64,000 nt of DNA from contig CACJUH010000003.1 in assembly GCA_902596545.1 (NCBI GenBank), positions 109,790 to 173,789 of the forward strand, in the 5' to 3' direction. Source of the DNA: an uncultured Candidatus Actinomarina sp. (GTDB lineage: Bacteria > Actinomycetota > Acidimicrobiia > Actinomarinales > Actinomarinaceae). A program made the position numbers and the translations under genes. This document shows, piece after piece, positions 39,677 to 43,962 of this stretch (position 1 is its first letter; every line of letters starts with the position of its first letter). Under the pieces are notes generated by a model. It was not told where the DNA came from. It did not search any database and saw only the letters and a list, made by a program, of their open reading frames with translations.

Positions 39677-42331
39677 TTAATTAGTTTTAATTATTTCAGC
39701 TTGTGCTGCAGCTAGTTTTGCTGTTGGAATTCTAAACGGAGAGCACGAAATATAGTCAATTTGGAGAGTGTTAAAGAATTGTATTGAGTTTGCTTCTCCA
39801 GCATGCTCACCACAAACACCTATTTTTAAATTTTTGTTAGAACTTTTACCTTCACTTACTGAAATCTCTACAACTCTACCAACTGAACCTTGATCAATCG
39901 ACACAAAAGGGTCTTCTGAAAAAATATCATTTTCTACATATGTATTTAGAAATTTTGAAGCGTCATCTCTTGATAGACCAAGTGTTGTCTGTGTTAAATC
40001 GTTTGTGCCGAAAGAAAAGAAGTCTGCATGCTCTGCTATAGATGAAGAATTTAAGGCAGCACTTGGTAATTCAATCATTGTTCCTATTGTAAAGTTAAAT
40101 TTAAATTGCAATTCTTCTTCTAATTGAGTTATTTTTTCTATTAAATAGTCTTTCATCTGACTTAATTCTTCTGCATTCATAACAAGTGGAATCATTATCT
40201 CAGGGGAAACGCTAAGCTTTTCATTTTTATTTAAGTTGTAAGAAGCTCTAAGAATTGCTTCTACTTGCATTTCATAAATTTCAGGATAACTTAATCCAAG
40301 CCGAACTCCCCTGTGGCCAAGCATGGGATTACTCTCCGATAGCTTTACTAACATCTCTCTTATATGGGCTGGTGATACACCAATCGCATTTCCAAGCTCG
40401 GTCATTTCAATATCACTTTTTGGTAAAAATTCATGCATTGGTGGATCAAGTAATCTAACTGTGATTGGCTTGTCCTTTAGAAGCAAAAATAATGCTTCGA
40501 AATCTGAAATTTGATATGTTATTAATTTACTTAATGCTCTCTCCCTGCCCTGTTTTGTATCTGACATAATCATTTCACGCATAGGAATAATTCTGTCTCC
40601 TTCAAAAAACATGTGCTCAGTCCTACATAAACCAATTCCTTCAGCACCAAACTCTAATGATTTTTTTGTATCAGTAATTGTTTCTGCATTTGCTCTTATT
40701 TTGAGCTTTTTAAATTCATCGCACCAGTCCATAAGTGTGTTAAATTCTTTTGAAGGCTTTGGTGGTTCAGATTCAAGCTCACCAATATATACTTCACCTA
40801 GACCGCCATCAATTGAAATCATGTCGCCTTCGTTTAAAGTTGTTGTCCCATTTGAAATAGTTTTTAAAGTGTTATCAATAATTAAACTCTCTGCACCAAC
40901 GATACATGGTTTACCCATTCCTCTCGCAACAACAGCTGCATGACTAGTCATTCCACCTTTGGTTGTTAAAATTCCAACAGAGGAGTGCATTCCGTGAATA
41001 TCTTCGGGGCTTGTTTCATCCCTAACTAGAATTACATCTCTACCTTTGTTTGCTTCCTCTTCAGCCTTATCAGCATCAAATACAATTTCTCCAACTGCTG
41101 CTCCTGGTGATGCATTCAAAGCTTTGCTGTACAATTCTTTTTTTTGTGAATCTACAAACTGTGGGTGCAATAGATTGGTAATACTATTTGCATCAACCAT
41201 AGCTATAGCTTCTTCTTTTGTAACAATTCCTTCTTTCTGCATGTCAATAGCAATTTTTACACTTGCTTGGGCAGTTCGTTTTGCTTGTCTAGTTTGCAGT
41301 AAATAGATATCTTCGTTTTCAATAGTGAATTCAATATCTTGTACTTCTTTAAAATGATTTTCTAATTTTGTTGAGATTTCTAAAATTTCTTTATAAGATT
41401 TCGGAAATTTTGACTCTAGTGATTCTTGTTGAGCTTTTGAATGCTTTTTTATTGGATGTGGAGTTCTTATGCCAGCAACAACATCTTCTCCCTGAGCATT
41501 AATTAAATATTCTCCATATAGCTCTTTATCACCATTTGATGGATTTCTCGTAAAAGCGACCCCCGTGCCTGATTGATTATTAAGATTTCCAAATACCATT
41601 GTTTGTACTGTTGCGCCTGTTCCCCATACATCGGGAATATTGTTAATTTTTCTATACGTAACAGCTCGTTTATTTTGCCAGCTATTAAACACTGCTTCAA
41701 TAGCACCTGTTAGTTGTTCATAAGGTTCTTGAGGAAATGCAGCATCAGTAAACCTTTCAACTGTATTTTTATAAGCATTGATTATCCAGTTGAGTTGCTC
41801 AACATTAAAATTTGCATCCGAATCAACATTGTCCATTCGTTTTTTGTTAGCTATTACAGCCTCAAATCGTTCATGTTCTACTCCCAACACAACATTTGAA
41901 TACATTTGTATTAAGCGCCTGTATGAATCCAGAGCAAACCTCTCATCATTAAATGCATCTGCTAGCTGAGATACATTACTATCGTTTAATCCAATATTTA
42001 AAATTGAATCCATCATCCCAGGCATAGAAATTCTTCCACCAGACCTCACTGATAGTAAAAGTGGCATGCCATCACCACCAAAACTTTTTTTAGAGAAAGT
42101 CTCTAGTTTTTTTACTGCCTCTTTTATATCATTATCTAGATTTTCAGGAAACTTTTCATTTTCAGTAAAGTAGTTGCAGACTTCTGTTGTAATGGTGAAA
42201 CCTGGAGGAACGGGAATTCCCATTTTTGACATTTCAGCCAAGTTAGCGCCTTTGCCACCTAAGAGGTTATTTAGGGATGAATCACCATCAGTTTTGTTTT
42301 TAGAGAATTCAAAAATTAGTTTATTTTCCAT
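39677..42331 (-). CDS. ppdK: pyruvate, phosphate dikinase
   Basis: Interconverts pyruvate + ATP + Pi and PEP + AMP + PPi; reversible link of lower glycolysis and gluconeogenesis. 884 aa, full length. N-terminal ATP-binding domain (LGGKGANLAEMSKMGIPVPPG near 23), swivelling phosphohistidine domain (GGMTSHAAVVARGMGKPCI near 460), and C-terminal PEP-binding barrel (LCRTEHMFF, SFGTNDLTQTTLG and GVCGEHAGE with the catalytic Cys). Divergent from the GAPDH-like gene across 56 bp. Confidence 0.97.
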   Translation of the reverse strand: MENKLIFEFSKNKTDGDSSLNNLLGGKGANLAEMSKMGIPVPPGFTITTEVCNYFTENEKFPENLDNDIKEAVKKLETFSKKSFGGDGMPLLLSVRSGGRISMPGMMDSILNIGLNDSNVSQLADAFNDERFALDSYRRLIQMYSNVVLGVEHERFEAVIANKKRMDNVDSDANFNVEQLNWIINAYKNTVERFTDAAFPQEPYEQLTGAIEAVFNSWQNKRAVTYRKINNIPDVWGTGATVQTMVFGNLNNQSGTGVAFTRNPSNGDKELYGEYLINAQGEDVVAGIRTPHPIKKHSKAQQESLESKFPKSYKEILEISTKLENHFKEVQDIEFTIENEDIYLLQTRQAKRTAQASVKIAIDMQKEGIVTKEEAIAMVDANSITNLLHPQFVDSQKKELYSKALNASPGAAVGEIVFDADKAEEEANKGRDVILVRDETSPEDIHGMHSSVGILTTKGGMTSHAAVVARGMGKPCIVGAESLIIDNTLKTISNGTTTLNEGDMISIDGGLGEVYIGELESEPPKPSKEFNTLMDWCDEFKKLKIRANAETITDTKKSLEFGAEGIGLCRTEHMFFEGDRIIPMREMIMSDTKQGRERALSKLITYQISDFEALFLLLKDKPITVRLLDPPMHEFLPKSDIEMTELGNAIGVSPAHIREMLVKLSESNPMLGHRGVRLGLSYPEIYEMQVEAILRASYNLNKNEKLSVSPEIMIPLVMNAEELSQMKDYLIEKITQLEEELQFKFNFTIGTMIELPSAALNSSSIAEHADFFSFGTNDLTQTTLGLSRDDASKFLNTYVENDIFSEDPFVSIDQGSVGRVVEISVSEGKSSNKNLKIGVCGEHAGEANSIQFFNTLQIDYISCSPFRIPTAKLAAAQAEIIKTN

Positions 42332-42348
42332 GGCGTAAATTAAAAATC

Positions 42349-42380
42349 TCCCCCCTCTATCCTTTAATTATAAAGGGGGG
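42349..42380 (+). promoter_or_regulatory. C-run/G-run hairpin covering the ribosome site of the GAPDH-like gene
   Basis: TCCCCCC (from 42349) can pair with GGGGGGA (from 42375), enclosing a smaller hairpin CCTTTA-ATTA-TAAAGG (42361-42376). The G-run is also the probable Shine-Dalgarno sequence, 7 nt before the ATG at 42388. The two pairings compete for part of the G-run, so the site would be hidden in either fold. On the other strand the same region gives a GGGGGGAGA site for ppdK. Confidence 0.45.
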
Positions 42381-42387
42381 AAGCAAT

Positions 42388-43434
42388 ATGGCCAAAAATG
42401 TAATGATTATTGGTACTGGTACTATTGGTGAACCTCTTATTGGTCTATTAGCGGAACACAAAGATGCTCTTGGTTTAGATAATGTTGTATTTTTTAAAAG
42501 AACTCCTCTTTCAGATGAAAAAGGGAAAGTTGAAGCTTTGCTTAGAAAAGGTGCAAAGATAGTTTCAACTTCAAATGCTTTATCAGATTTTAAACAATTA
42601 GGATTTGCAGATATTGAAGATGTAGACAACGCATATGAAGATGTAGATGTCATTATTGACTGTACTCCAAGTGGCAATGACAACTGGGACAATATATATT
42701 CATCTCTTGATCAATCAAAAAGATTTATGGCGCAAGGTTCTGAGCATGGATTTGGTCCATTTTTTGCTTGGGGTATAAATAATGATGTTCTTGAAAATGA
42801 TTCAAACAGATATCTTATTGCATCTTGTAATACGCATAATATTGCATCAATAGTGAAGACTTTTGCGTTAGATCAGAGTCGTGAACTTGATGAAGGTCAA
42901 TTTGTATGTTTGCGAAGAGCTAATGATGTCTCACAAAATGACTCATTTTCTCCATCACCAACTATTACAAAGCATTCAAATCAAGAGTTTGGCACACATC
43001 ATGCAAGAGACGTGCACGAATTATTTGCCCAAGAAGGAAAAGAATTAAACTTATTTTCTTCCGCGATAAAATTGCCAACCCAATACATGCACACTTTATG
43101 GTTTACATTACGTTTTACTGACACAATACAGCATGAAGAGATAATGGAAAATCTTTATAGGAGTGAGTTTTTAATGGCAACTGAGAAAATGTCATCCAAC
43201 AAAGTCTTTTCTTTTGGTAGGGATCACGGCTATCACGGAAGATTATTATCTCATGGCATTGTTGCTGAGCAGTCACTTCATGTAAAAGACAATGTACTCA
43301 CCGGATACTGCTTTACACCACAAGATGGTAACGCTCTACTCTCATCTGTTGCAGGTACTGTTCAACATTACTACAAAGATAATTGGACAGAGAAAATGAA
43401 AACTTTCAATCGCTACATTTTCAAAAATATATAA
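42388..43434 (+). CDS. type II (archaeal-like) glyceraldehyde-3-phosphate dehydrogenase homologue
   Basis: The 348-aa protein has the Rossmann motif MIIGTGTIGEPLIG (residues 6-19), DVIIDCTPSGNDN (about 88-100), a catalytic Cys context ASCNTHN (Cys near 150) and LPTQYMH (about 230), the order seen in archaeal GAPDH (DxTPxG, SCNT, PTxxMH). True archaeal enzymes interconvert glyceraldehyde 3-phosphate and 1,3-bisphosphoglycerate with NAD(P). The rest is divergent, so a related semialdehyde or lactaldehyde-type dehydrogenase is possible. Divergent from PPDK, which suits a glycolytic/gluconeogenic role. Confidence 0.72.
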   Translation: MAKNVMIIGTGTIGEPLIGLLAEHKDALGLDNVVFFKRTPLSDEKGKVEALLRKGAKIVSTSNALSDFKQLGFADIEDVDNAYEDVDVIIDCTPSGNDNWDNIYSSLDQSKRFMAQGSEHGFGPFFAWGINNDVLENDSNRYLIASCNTHNIASIVKTFALDQSRELDEGQFVCLRRANDVSQNDSFSPSPTITKHSNQEFGTHHARDVHELFAQEGKELNLFSSAIKLPTQYMHTLWFTLRFTDTIQHEEIMENLYRSEFLMATEKMSSNKVFSFGRDHGYHGRLLSHGIVAEQSLHVKDNVLTGYCFTPQDGNALLSSVAGTVQHYYKDNWTEKMKTFNRYIFKNI

Positions 43435-43449
43435 CTCTAGAATTTAACT

Positions 43450-43962
43450 ATGGAAAAAGTTATTGCAATTGCAATACCAGCCTTATTTATAGTTGGAATT
43501 ATATGGCTAATCGTTGCATCAAATAAAAGAATAAATAAAGCCCTTTCAACTGCTTCGAAAACTTTAGGTTTTACTTATATACCCTCTAAAAACATATTCA
43601 GAAAGAAAAGAATATTTGGTGAACTAGATGGATATAACTGTGAAGTGGAAGTCTATACAAGAAGTCACGGTAAGTCCTCAACAACATATGTCTCTTTCTT
43701 TGCTTACTTTCCAGAGAGCTTTGATATGGGACTGAAGATTAATTGGCGAGGTGAGTTTGATGGAGATGATGAGTATCTGACAGACCTATTTATAAAACGA
43801 AATGAAGAACTTATAGAAACGTCAAAGAAAAATCTAAGAAGATTAAGAGTAGAGGATGCATTTGTAAATTCGAGAAAAGTCTTATTTAGAAAATATTACA
43901 AAGCTGATGAGATTGTCAAAACAATGAGAGATGTACTTAACTTAGCAAAAGCAATTAAGTAG
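43450..43962 (+). CDS. hypothetical protein with one membrane segment, 170 aa
   Basis: Not recognised. Residues about 3-23 form a transmembrane anchor; the rest is a soluble alpha/beta domain ending in helices with KKNLRRLRVED. It follows the GAPDH-like gene by 15 nt, so it is probably in the same transcript, and its 3' end overlaps the convergent membrane gene by 8 nt. Confidence 0.6.
   Translation: MEKVIAIAIPALFIVGIIWLIVASNKRINKALSTASKTLGFTYIPSKNIFRKKRIFGELDGYNCEVEVYTRSHGKSSTTYVSFFAYFPESFDMGLKINWRGEFDGDDEYLTDLFIKRNEELIETSKKNLRRLRVEDAFVNSRKVLFRKYYKADEIVKTMRDVLNLAKAIK

Follow-up and report, generated by a model that had tools for sequence, protein, structure and literature searches.

Within a 64,000-nucleotide window (the whole stretch of DNA analysed here) from the genome of an uncultured Candidatus Actinomarina sp. 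(1,097,906 bases on 17 contigs, completeness 94.65%), we identified a protein, P0001, that, judged by its sequence and a predicted model, belongs to a deeply divergent and so far unrecognised subfamily with the type II glyceraldehyde 3-phosphate dehydrogenase (GAPDH) fold and an invariant signature of its own, here termed GAP2L. The best explanation of our data, which we consider reasonably probable, is that GAP2L is a phosphorylating GAPDH that would serve gluconeogenesis beside a glycolytic type I enzyme, and that is also carried by phages.

Reading frame, fold and active site of GAP2L

The open reading frame, and the GTGTIG, DCTPSG, SCNTH and PTQYMH motifs within it, were found where the initial annotation had placed them, and measurement returned the same 56 bp between GAP2L and the divergent PPDK gene (Table 1). 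That the frame is not a chance one is confirmed at the sequence level by its matches to the type II GAPDH model NF003251 (E 2.5e-23) and the type II PDB chain 2yyy (E 2.9e-12), and by the presence of GAP2L in 36 of the 42 listed genomes of its genus.

Table 1. Positions of GAP2L, its motifs and neighbours in the window, and of the type I genes (positions with a G or L prefix refer to the genome and locus named)
Feature	Position	Strand	Basis or remark
GAP2L (P0001), type II GAPDH-like, 348 aa	42388..43434	+	ATG ORF, no internal stop
GTGTIG dinucleotide-binding loop, residues 9-14	42412..42429	+	sequence, alignment
DCTPSG, residues 91-96	42658..42675	+	alignment
SCNTH, residues 146-150, putative catalytic Cys147	42823..42837	+	alignment
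Arg176-Arg177, putative phosphate-site arginines	42913..42918	+	alignment
PTQYMH, residues 230-235, putative catalytic His235	43075..43092	+	alignment
Divergent PPDK/GAP2L intergenic region, 56 bp	42332..42387	.	sequence
PPDK (pyruvate, phosphate dikinase), divergent neighbour	39677..42331	-	TIGR01828 1257.7 bits, cut-off 843
170-aa protein, function unassigned	43450..43962	+	ORF, 15 bp downstream of GAP2L
Type I GAPDH paralogue, Asn for catalytic Cys	G000:C2:116170-117135 (L060:4141-5145)	-	directly before gap
Type I gap gene	L060:3136-4140	-	adjoins Asn paralogue

Within the intergenic region, complementary C-run and G-run arms flank an AT-rich near-palindrome, CCTTTAATTATAAAGG. Similar arms occur in close Actinomarina relatives and are missing in distant ones, and they could be operator or ribosome-binding sites. 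An NCBIfam search with the 170-residue downstream protein returned no family.

No Pfam model matched P0001 above its cut-offs, and the protein scored below the curated cut-offs of both type II GAPDH models, NF003251 (82.7 bits, cut-off 185) and TIGR01546 (57.2 bits, cut-off 232.9), and of the type I model TIGR01534 (19 bits, cut-off 367.2). A profile of the GAP2L family returned only four archaeal type II entries among solved structures at E 0.01 or better. In a Foldseek search with an AlphaFold2 model built from 33 family sequences (pLDDT 83.7, pTM 0.86), the same four archaeal entries ranked first. They also led the alignment of the model by VIA-align 2, with Z scores of 30.8-31.6 (315-323 residues, rmsd 2.8-3.0), which gave values and of at most 24.7 to type I structures, while a BFVD search gave no convincing match. 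The loops at residues 180-190 and 276-283, both conserved, are unreadable in the model because their pLDDT lies under 50. The type II-like arrangement and the divergence proposed in the initial annotation are thus both borne out, the former by a predicted fold closer to type II and by retention of the active site, the latter by the low profile scores.

Identity between the GAP2L family and canonical type II GAPDH is 16-28% (about 20%), against 39-47% between archaeal and actinobacterial members of the canonical group (about 42% to archaeal chains), indicating that P0001 is not a canonical type II enzyme. We found no description of GAP2L, or of the altered type I paralogue discussed below, in the portions available to us of the open-licence literature on Actinomarina, bacterial and phage GAPDH, and pseudoenzymes.

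For the active site, we aligned 134 sequences, comprising 33 from Actinomarina, 36 from other Acidimicrobiia, 56 from viruses and nine canonical type II enzymes. The bacterial GAP2L alignment kept 69 proteins, identical proteins as well as L072 and L082 having been removed beforehand; viral proteins under 300 residues were excluded, leaving 70, of which 56 distinct ones were aligned, with their starts trimmed to at most 12 residues ahead of the GTG motif. Glycines 9, 11 and 14 were present in all rows except one fragment that is gapped there, D91 and P94 were invariant, T93 was found in all but one row, and C147, R176, R177 and H235 were each present in 134 of 134. We take C147 and H235 to be catalytic, as in archaeal type II GAPDH structures, and Arg176-177 presumably bind phosphate, as they do in archaeal GAPDH structures.

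Fourteen positions (S146, C147, N148, T149, H150, R176, R177, D180, T203, H204, H205, D208, Q232 and H235) did not vary across the 125 GAP2L rows, and the nine canonical rows have C147, T149, both arginines, D180, H204 and H235 in common with them. Position 150 separates the two groups, being H in 125 of 125 GAP2L rows and T in nine of nine canonical rows (SCNTH versus SCNTT). Where the initial annotation had raised the prospect of another semialdehyde dehydrogenase family with a missing phosphate site, we found, at the level of the alignment, that R176, R177, T149, H204 and H235 are invariant, suggesting that a putative phosphate site is retained. We additionally noted an invariant KRT at residues 37-39 of the bacterial GAP2L sequences, which we take to resemble the K-T of archaeal NADP-using GAPDH enzymes; HMMER aligns the region to the archaeal K-T and MAFFT does not, and the similarity lends weak support to NADPH as a candidate cofactor.

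Gene context and proposed function

We investigated the neighbourhood of GAP2L in 36 loci outside the genus and in 31 distinct Actinomarina genomes (L001, L004-L022, L061-L071). In half of the non-genus acidimicrobial loci (18/36), isocitrate lyase was found upstream on the same strand, preceded by malate synthase in all 18, and in nine loci it was the nearest marker, 35-119 bp from GAP2L. In five of the 36 loci, GAP2L was preceded at a distance of 10-26 bp by GlpX, a class II fructose-bisphosphatase, so that the genes run malate synthase, isocitrate lyase, GlpX, GAP2L. Isocitrate lyase, malate synthase and GlpX scored above curated cut-offs. The other 18 loci, some of them short, had SufB, LeuC or CinA/MiaB neighbours or no marker.

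Within Actinomarina, isocitrate lyase lay directly downstream of GAP2L in seven of the 31 genomes, and PPDK was divergent from GAP2L in 30 of them, against none of the 36 loci outside the genus. We therefore reject PPDK as a general functional partner, since among the loci read it adjoined GAP2L only in Actinomarina. In one locus (L027), isocitrate lyase and malate synthase sit exactly between GAP2L and a homologue of the 170-residue protein; taken with the upstream operons, this indicates that the link between GAP2L and the glyoxylate genes exists in two different arrangements. A transcription regulator near the glyoxylate genes, which by eye resembles RamB, was assigned to no family by NCBIfam. 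In one acidimicrobial locus, SufB (L058:7328-9955) seems, as read by eye, to hold an intein-like insert.

The association was also examined across 62 genomes hand-picked from a class-wide search, 46 of them GAP2L-positive and 16 negative; G056 and G075, which carry canonical type II GAPDH, were placed among the negatives. The isocitrate lyase family was identified in 37 of 46 positive genomes against two of 16 negative ones, one of the two being a weak partial match (Fisher p 2.3e-6, uncorrected for kinship among these hand-picked genomes), and was not seen in the other nine positives. The Actinomarina genome studied here has an isocitrate-lyase-family match on another contig (G000:C6, 150 bits). 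For the sister order UBA5794, the part available to us of a published survey reports aceA in 63% of genomes (PMC12008989).

A type I gap, which the initial annotation had suggested looking for elsewhere in the genome, is present on contig G000:C2, at 447 bits and with its SCTTNC motif intact. Type I GAPDH was above cut-off in 44 of 46 GAP2L-positive genomes, this survey including G015 where the isocitrate lyase survey has G078. The two exceptions were G015 (78% complete) and G271 (family f27, 96% complete); GAP2L might be the only GAPDH of G271, or its type I gene might lie in the missing part.

We additionally identified a tandem second copy of the type I gene in 41 of the 46 positive genomes, in neither of two genomes of family f20, and in none of the 16 negatives as far as was seen. 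This paralogue has the motif GSNT[SA]N, in which Asn replaces the catalytic Cys (26 of 26 distinct genomes with a readable motif), and the arginine of MRVP is replaced by Asn or Thr. Its sequence suggests that it is probably a conserved, inactive pseudoenzyme, which may pair with the active GAPDH. In one Actinomarina genome it is split across two frames (G039:C1:130924-131890) and may be broken.

A dedicated gluconeogenic GAPDH fits these data, given the glyoxylate and GlpX neighbours and the additional presence of a normal type I enzyme. The gene context thus favours the gluconeogenic role that the initial annotation had thought possible, and from this context and the predicted fold we infer a phosphorylating GAPDH working toward sugar. 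GAP2L would mainly convert 1,3-bisphosphoglycerate and NADPH to glyceraldehyde 3-phosphate, through an acyl-enzyme on Cys147 with His235 as base and with the phosphates contacted by Arg176-177 and Thr149. During growth on C2 compounds, cells would run gluconeogenesis through GAP2L, leaving glycolysis to the separate type I GAPDH, and in Actinomarina the divergently paired PPDK could supply PEP.

The main rival reading is that GAP2L acts on a different semialdehyde, phosphorylated or plain, for example a glyoxylate- or pentose-linked one. Another phosphorylated aldehyde is conceivable because H150, N179, Q232 and the FSFGRDHG and TPQDGN segments may form part of the pocket for substrate or cofactor. 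The family-specific invariant residues missing from canonical type II enzymes point the same way, as does the 20% identity to those enzymes, and a family that occurs in phages lacking PGK (found in none of 40 viral GAP2L records) need not be glycolytic. However, GAP2L retains every catalytic and putative phosphate residue of the type II enzymes, and the neighbours are exactly gluconeogenic steps, so that we judge a different substrate unlikely, at perhaps one chance in a handful or a little better. The gluconeogenic reading itself has to bear the divergence from canonical type II with both curated cut-offs missed, the 18 of 36 non-genus loci without a gluconeogenic neighbour, the nine positive genomes in which isocitrate lyase was not seen, and the lack of PGK in the viral records.

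Distribution, phage relatives and origin

GAP2L was found in 24 of 39 genomes searched as relatives, and a class-wide search gave matches in 106 of 395 genomes. In two of these (G056 and G075) the match was weak and fell on a canonical type II enzyme, and the remainder lay in families f1, f2, f10, f20, f27 and f29, with 44-51% identity outside the genus. Across the phylum, 13 of 396 genomes matched; our own and five more from the class did so strongly, the other seven weakly. Six of the weak relatives (L076-L081) are canonical type II GAPDHs, whose profile matches 1cf2 at 5e-111, and one of the six scored 451 bits, above the NF003251 cut-off. Canonical type II GAPDH is thus present in other Actinomycetota, and was found also on bacterial plasmids. 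A fusion protein suggested by a 966-residue open frame in G037 was rejected, the gene having a start of its own, MPNIVHVVGTGTIG, within a long frame of high GC content.

Large marine phages carry GAP2L as well. In IMG/VR, a profile search identified 77 loci, and a further search based on other peptide patterns identified 78 distinct loci, the set of contigs being almost unchanged. The commonest neighbourhood, which recurs across contigs, contained a PIN-PhoH protein (46/77 loci), a trypsin-like protease (51/77) and small unknown genes; others contained ribonucleotide reductase with ClpP, DNA polymerase III alpha, or UvdE. In 13 viral loci (L185:1375-2496 and 12 others), a divergent tubulin/FtsZ-like protein lies upstream of GAP2L, with a Pfam Tubulin match (E 2.7e-5) below the gathering score. 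Among 40 of the 77 records tested for virus hallmarks, a Gp23-type capsid was present in nine and a terminase in nine, one or both occurring in ten records, which are ten of the 11 above 100 kb; of the 30 records with neither, all but one are shorter than 100 kb and could be incomplete pieces. Transaldolase was present on three of the 40. INPHARED (50,697 records) held no clear relative, its one match being 22.5% identical and on a 4-kb record; PHROGs held no family for P0001 or for the L106 and L160 proteins; and two patterns specific to canonical type II GAPDH, a weak test, found none in viral contigs.

We placed the family in trees with canonical type II enzymes (Actinomarina thinned to 11 rows, three archaeal sequences included) and on its own (seven Actinomarina and 12 other acidimicrobial rows). 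All nine canonical rows lie beyond a very long branch, which at about ten changes per site makes rooting the family with this outgroup impossible. In the within-family tree, which has no usable root, Actinomarina forms one group, the other Acidimicrobiia form another that joins six viral rows (support 99/96), and 50 viral rows make up the remainder. Forcing all bacteria onto one side lowers the likelihood by 18 log units, but this topology is not rejected (AU p 0.127); transfer between phages and bacteria may therefore have run either way, and we do not claim two separate transfers.

The grouping of the six viral rows with the non-genus Acidimicrobiia, apart from Actinomarina, would suit an origin of GAP2L in large marine phages with one or two entries into the Acidimicrobiia, as would the near-equal median identities of Actinomarina GAP2L to viral (46%) and other acidimicrobial (48%) sequences. 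However, the bacteria-on-one-side tree stands, the tree has long branches and no usable root, and the bacterial sampling covers Actinomycetota only. We regard this origin, which is compatible with the gluconeogenic reading, as possible but doubtful.

Recent acquisition of a canonical type II GAPDH from archaea, the horizontal origin that the initial annotation had suggested, is favoured by the best characterised matches, which are archaeal type II chains. The low identity relative to that within the canonical group, the very long branch and the missed cut-offs argue against it, and the nearest relatives of P0001 in the bacterial genomes (Actinomycetota) and viral contigs searched are other Acidimicrobiia and marine phages. 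In this comparison, with its three archaeal sequences, we rejected recent archaeal transfer as the simplest reading and hold it to be very improbable. That the IMG/VR contigs are misclassified bacterial DNA, making the phage branch an artefact, has the hallmark-free short records in its favour but runs against the capsid and terminase genes of the longest records and the constant PhoH neighbourhood, and is hardly credible.

For the phages, a gluconeogenic GAP2L could push host triose-phosphate upward to the pentose phosphate pathway for nucleotides; this is speculative, and the least supported step of the scheme. As a wider and tentative proposal, on which we would not rely, GAP2L may be a distinct GAPDH subfamily common to large T4-like marine phages and Acidimicrobiia, with which the phages would drive triose-phosphate in the gluconeogenic and pentose direction, and which the Acidimicrobiia, perhaps having received it from phages, would have incorporated into operons for acetate-to-sugar conversion, next to a type I GAPDH whose catalytically dead partner is conserved.

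A central-carbon subfamily unnamed by curated models extends across a marine actinobacterial genus and is found on some 80 marine viral contigs. Should GAP2L prove to be a gluconeogenic GAPDH, it would explain sugar synthesis from C2 compounds in these streamlined cells, and would add a GAPDH step to the known phage means of bending host carbon flow. The reason for three GAPDH-fold proteins in one lineage (GAP2L and two type I proteins, one working and one dead) becomes testable.

Comparison with known systems

GAP2L resembles the type II GAPDHs (NF003251/TIGR01546; 2yyy, 1b7g, 1cf2, 2czc) in its predicted fold, Rossmann glycines, SCNT with the catalytic Cys, arginine pair, D180 and catalytic His. 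It is unlike the canonical members in having SCNTH for SCNTT, in QYMH, FSFGRDHG and TPQDGN, in its roughly 20% identity and in falling below both cut-offs.

The haloarchaeal duties of type I and type II GAPDH were reportedly described by Tastensen and Schonheit in 2018. In the part of a later source available to us, haloarchaea (Haloferax volcanii and Har. hispanica) possess type I and type II GAPDHs with established glycolytic and gluconeogenic duties, GapII of Hfx. volcanii being gluconeogenic and GapI glycolytic (PMC10817205). The pair is like the arrangement proposed here, of a type II gluconeogenic enzyme beside a type I glycolytic one; however, haloarchaeal GapII is a canonical type II enzyme in archaea, whereas GAP2L is divergent, bacterial, and encoded beside isocitrate lyase, malate synthase and GlpX, or PPDK.

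GapB of Bacillus subtilis (8wwz), which has a gluconeogenic, NADP role, is similarly a second GAPDH. In contrast to GAP2L, it has the type I fold, and our model aligns to it with a Z of 24.3, against about 31 to type II.

Finally, marine cyanophages redirect host central carbon with talC and cp12, the latter encoding the Calvin-cycle regulator CP12 (PMC5082946), and are in this respect like the GAP2L phages, some of which carry transaldolase. In the part of that source available to us, cyanophages carry CP12 with no GAPDH enzyme described (PMC5082946), whereas the GAP2L phages carry a GAPDH-like enzyme itself.
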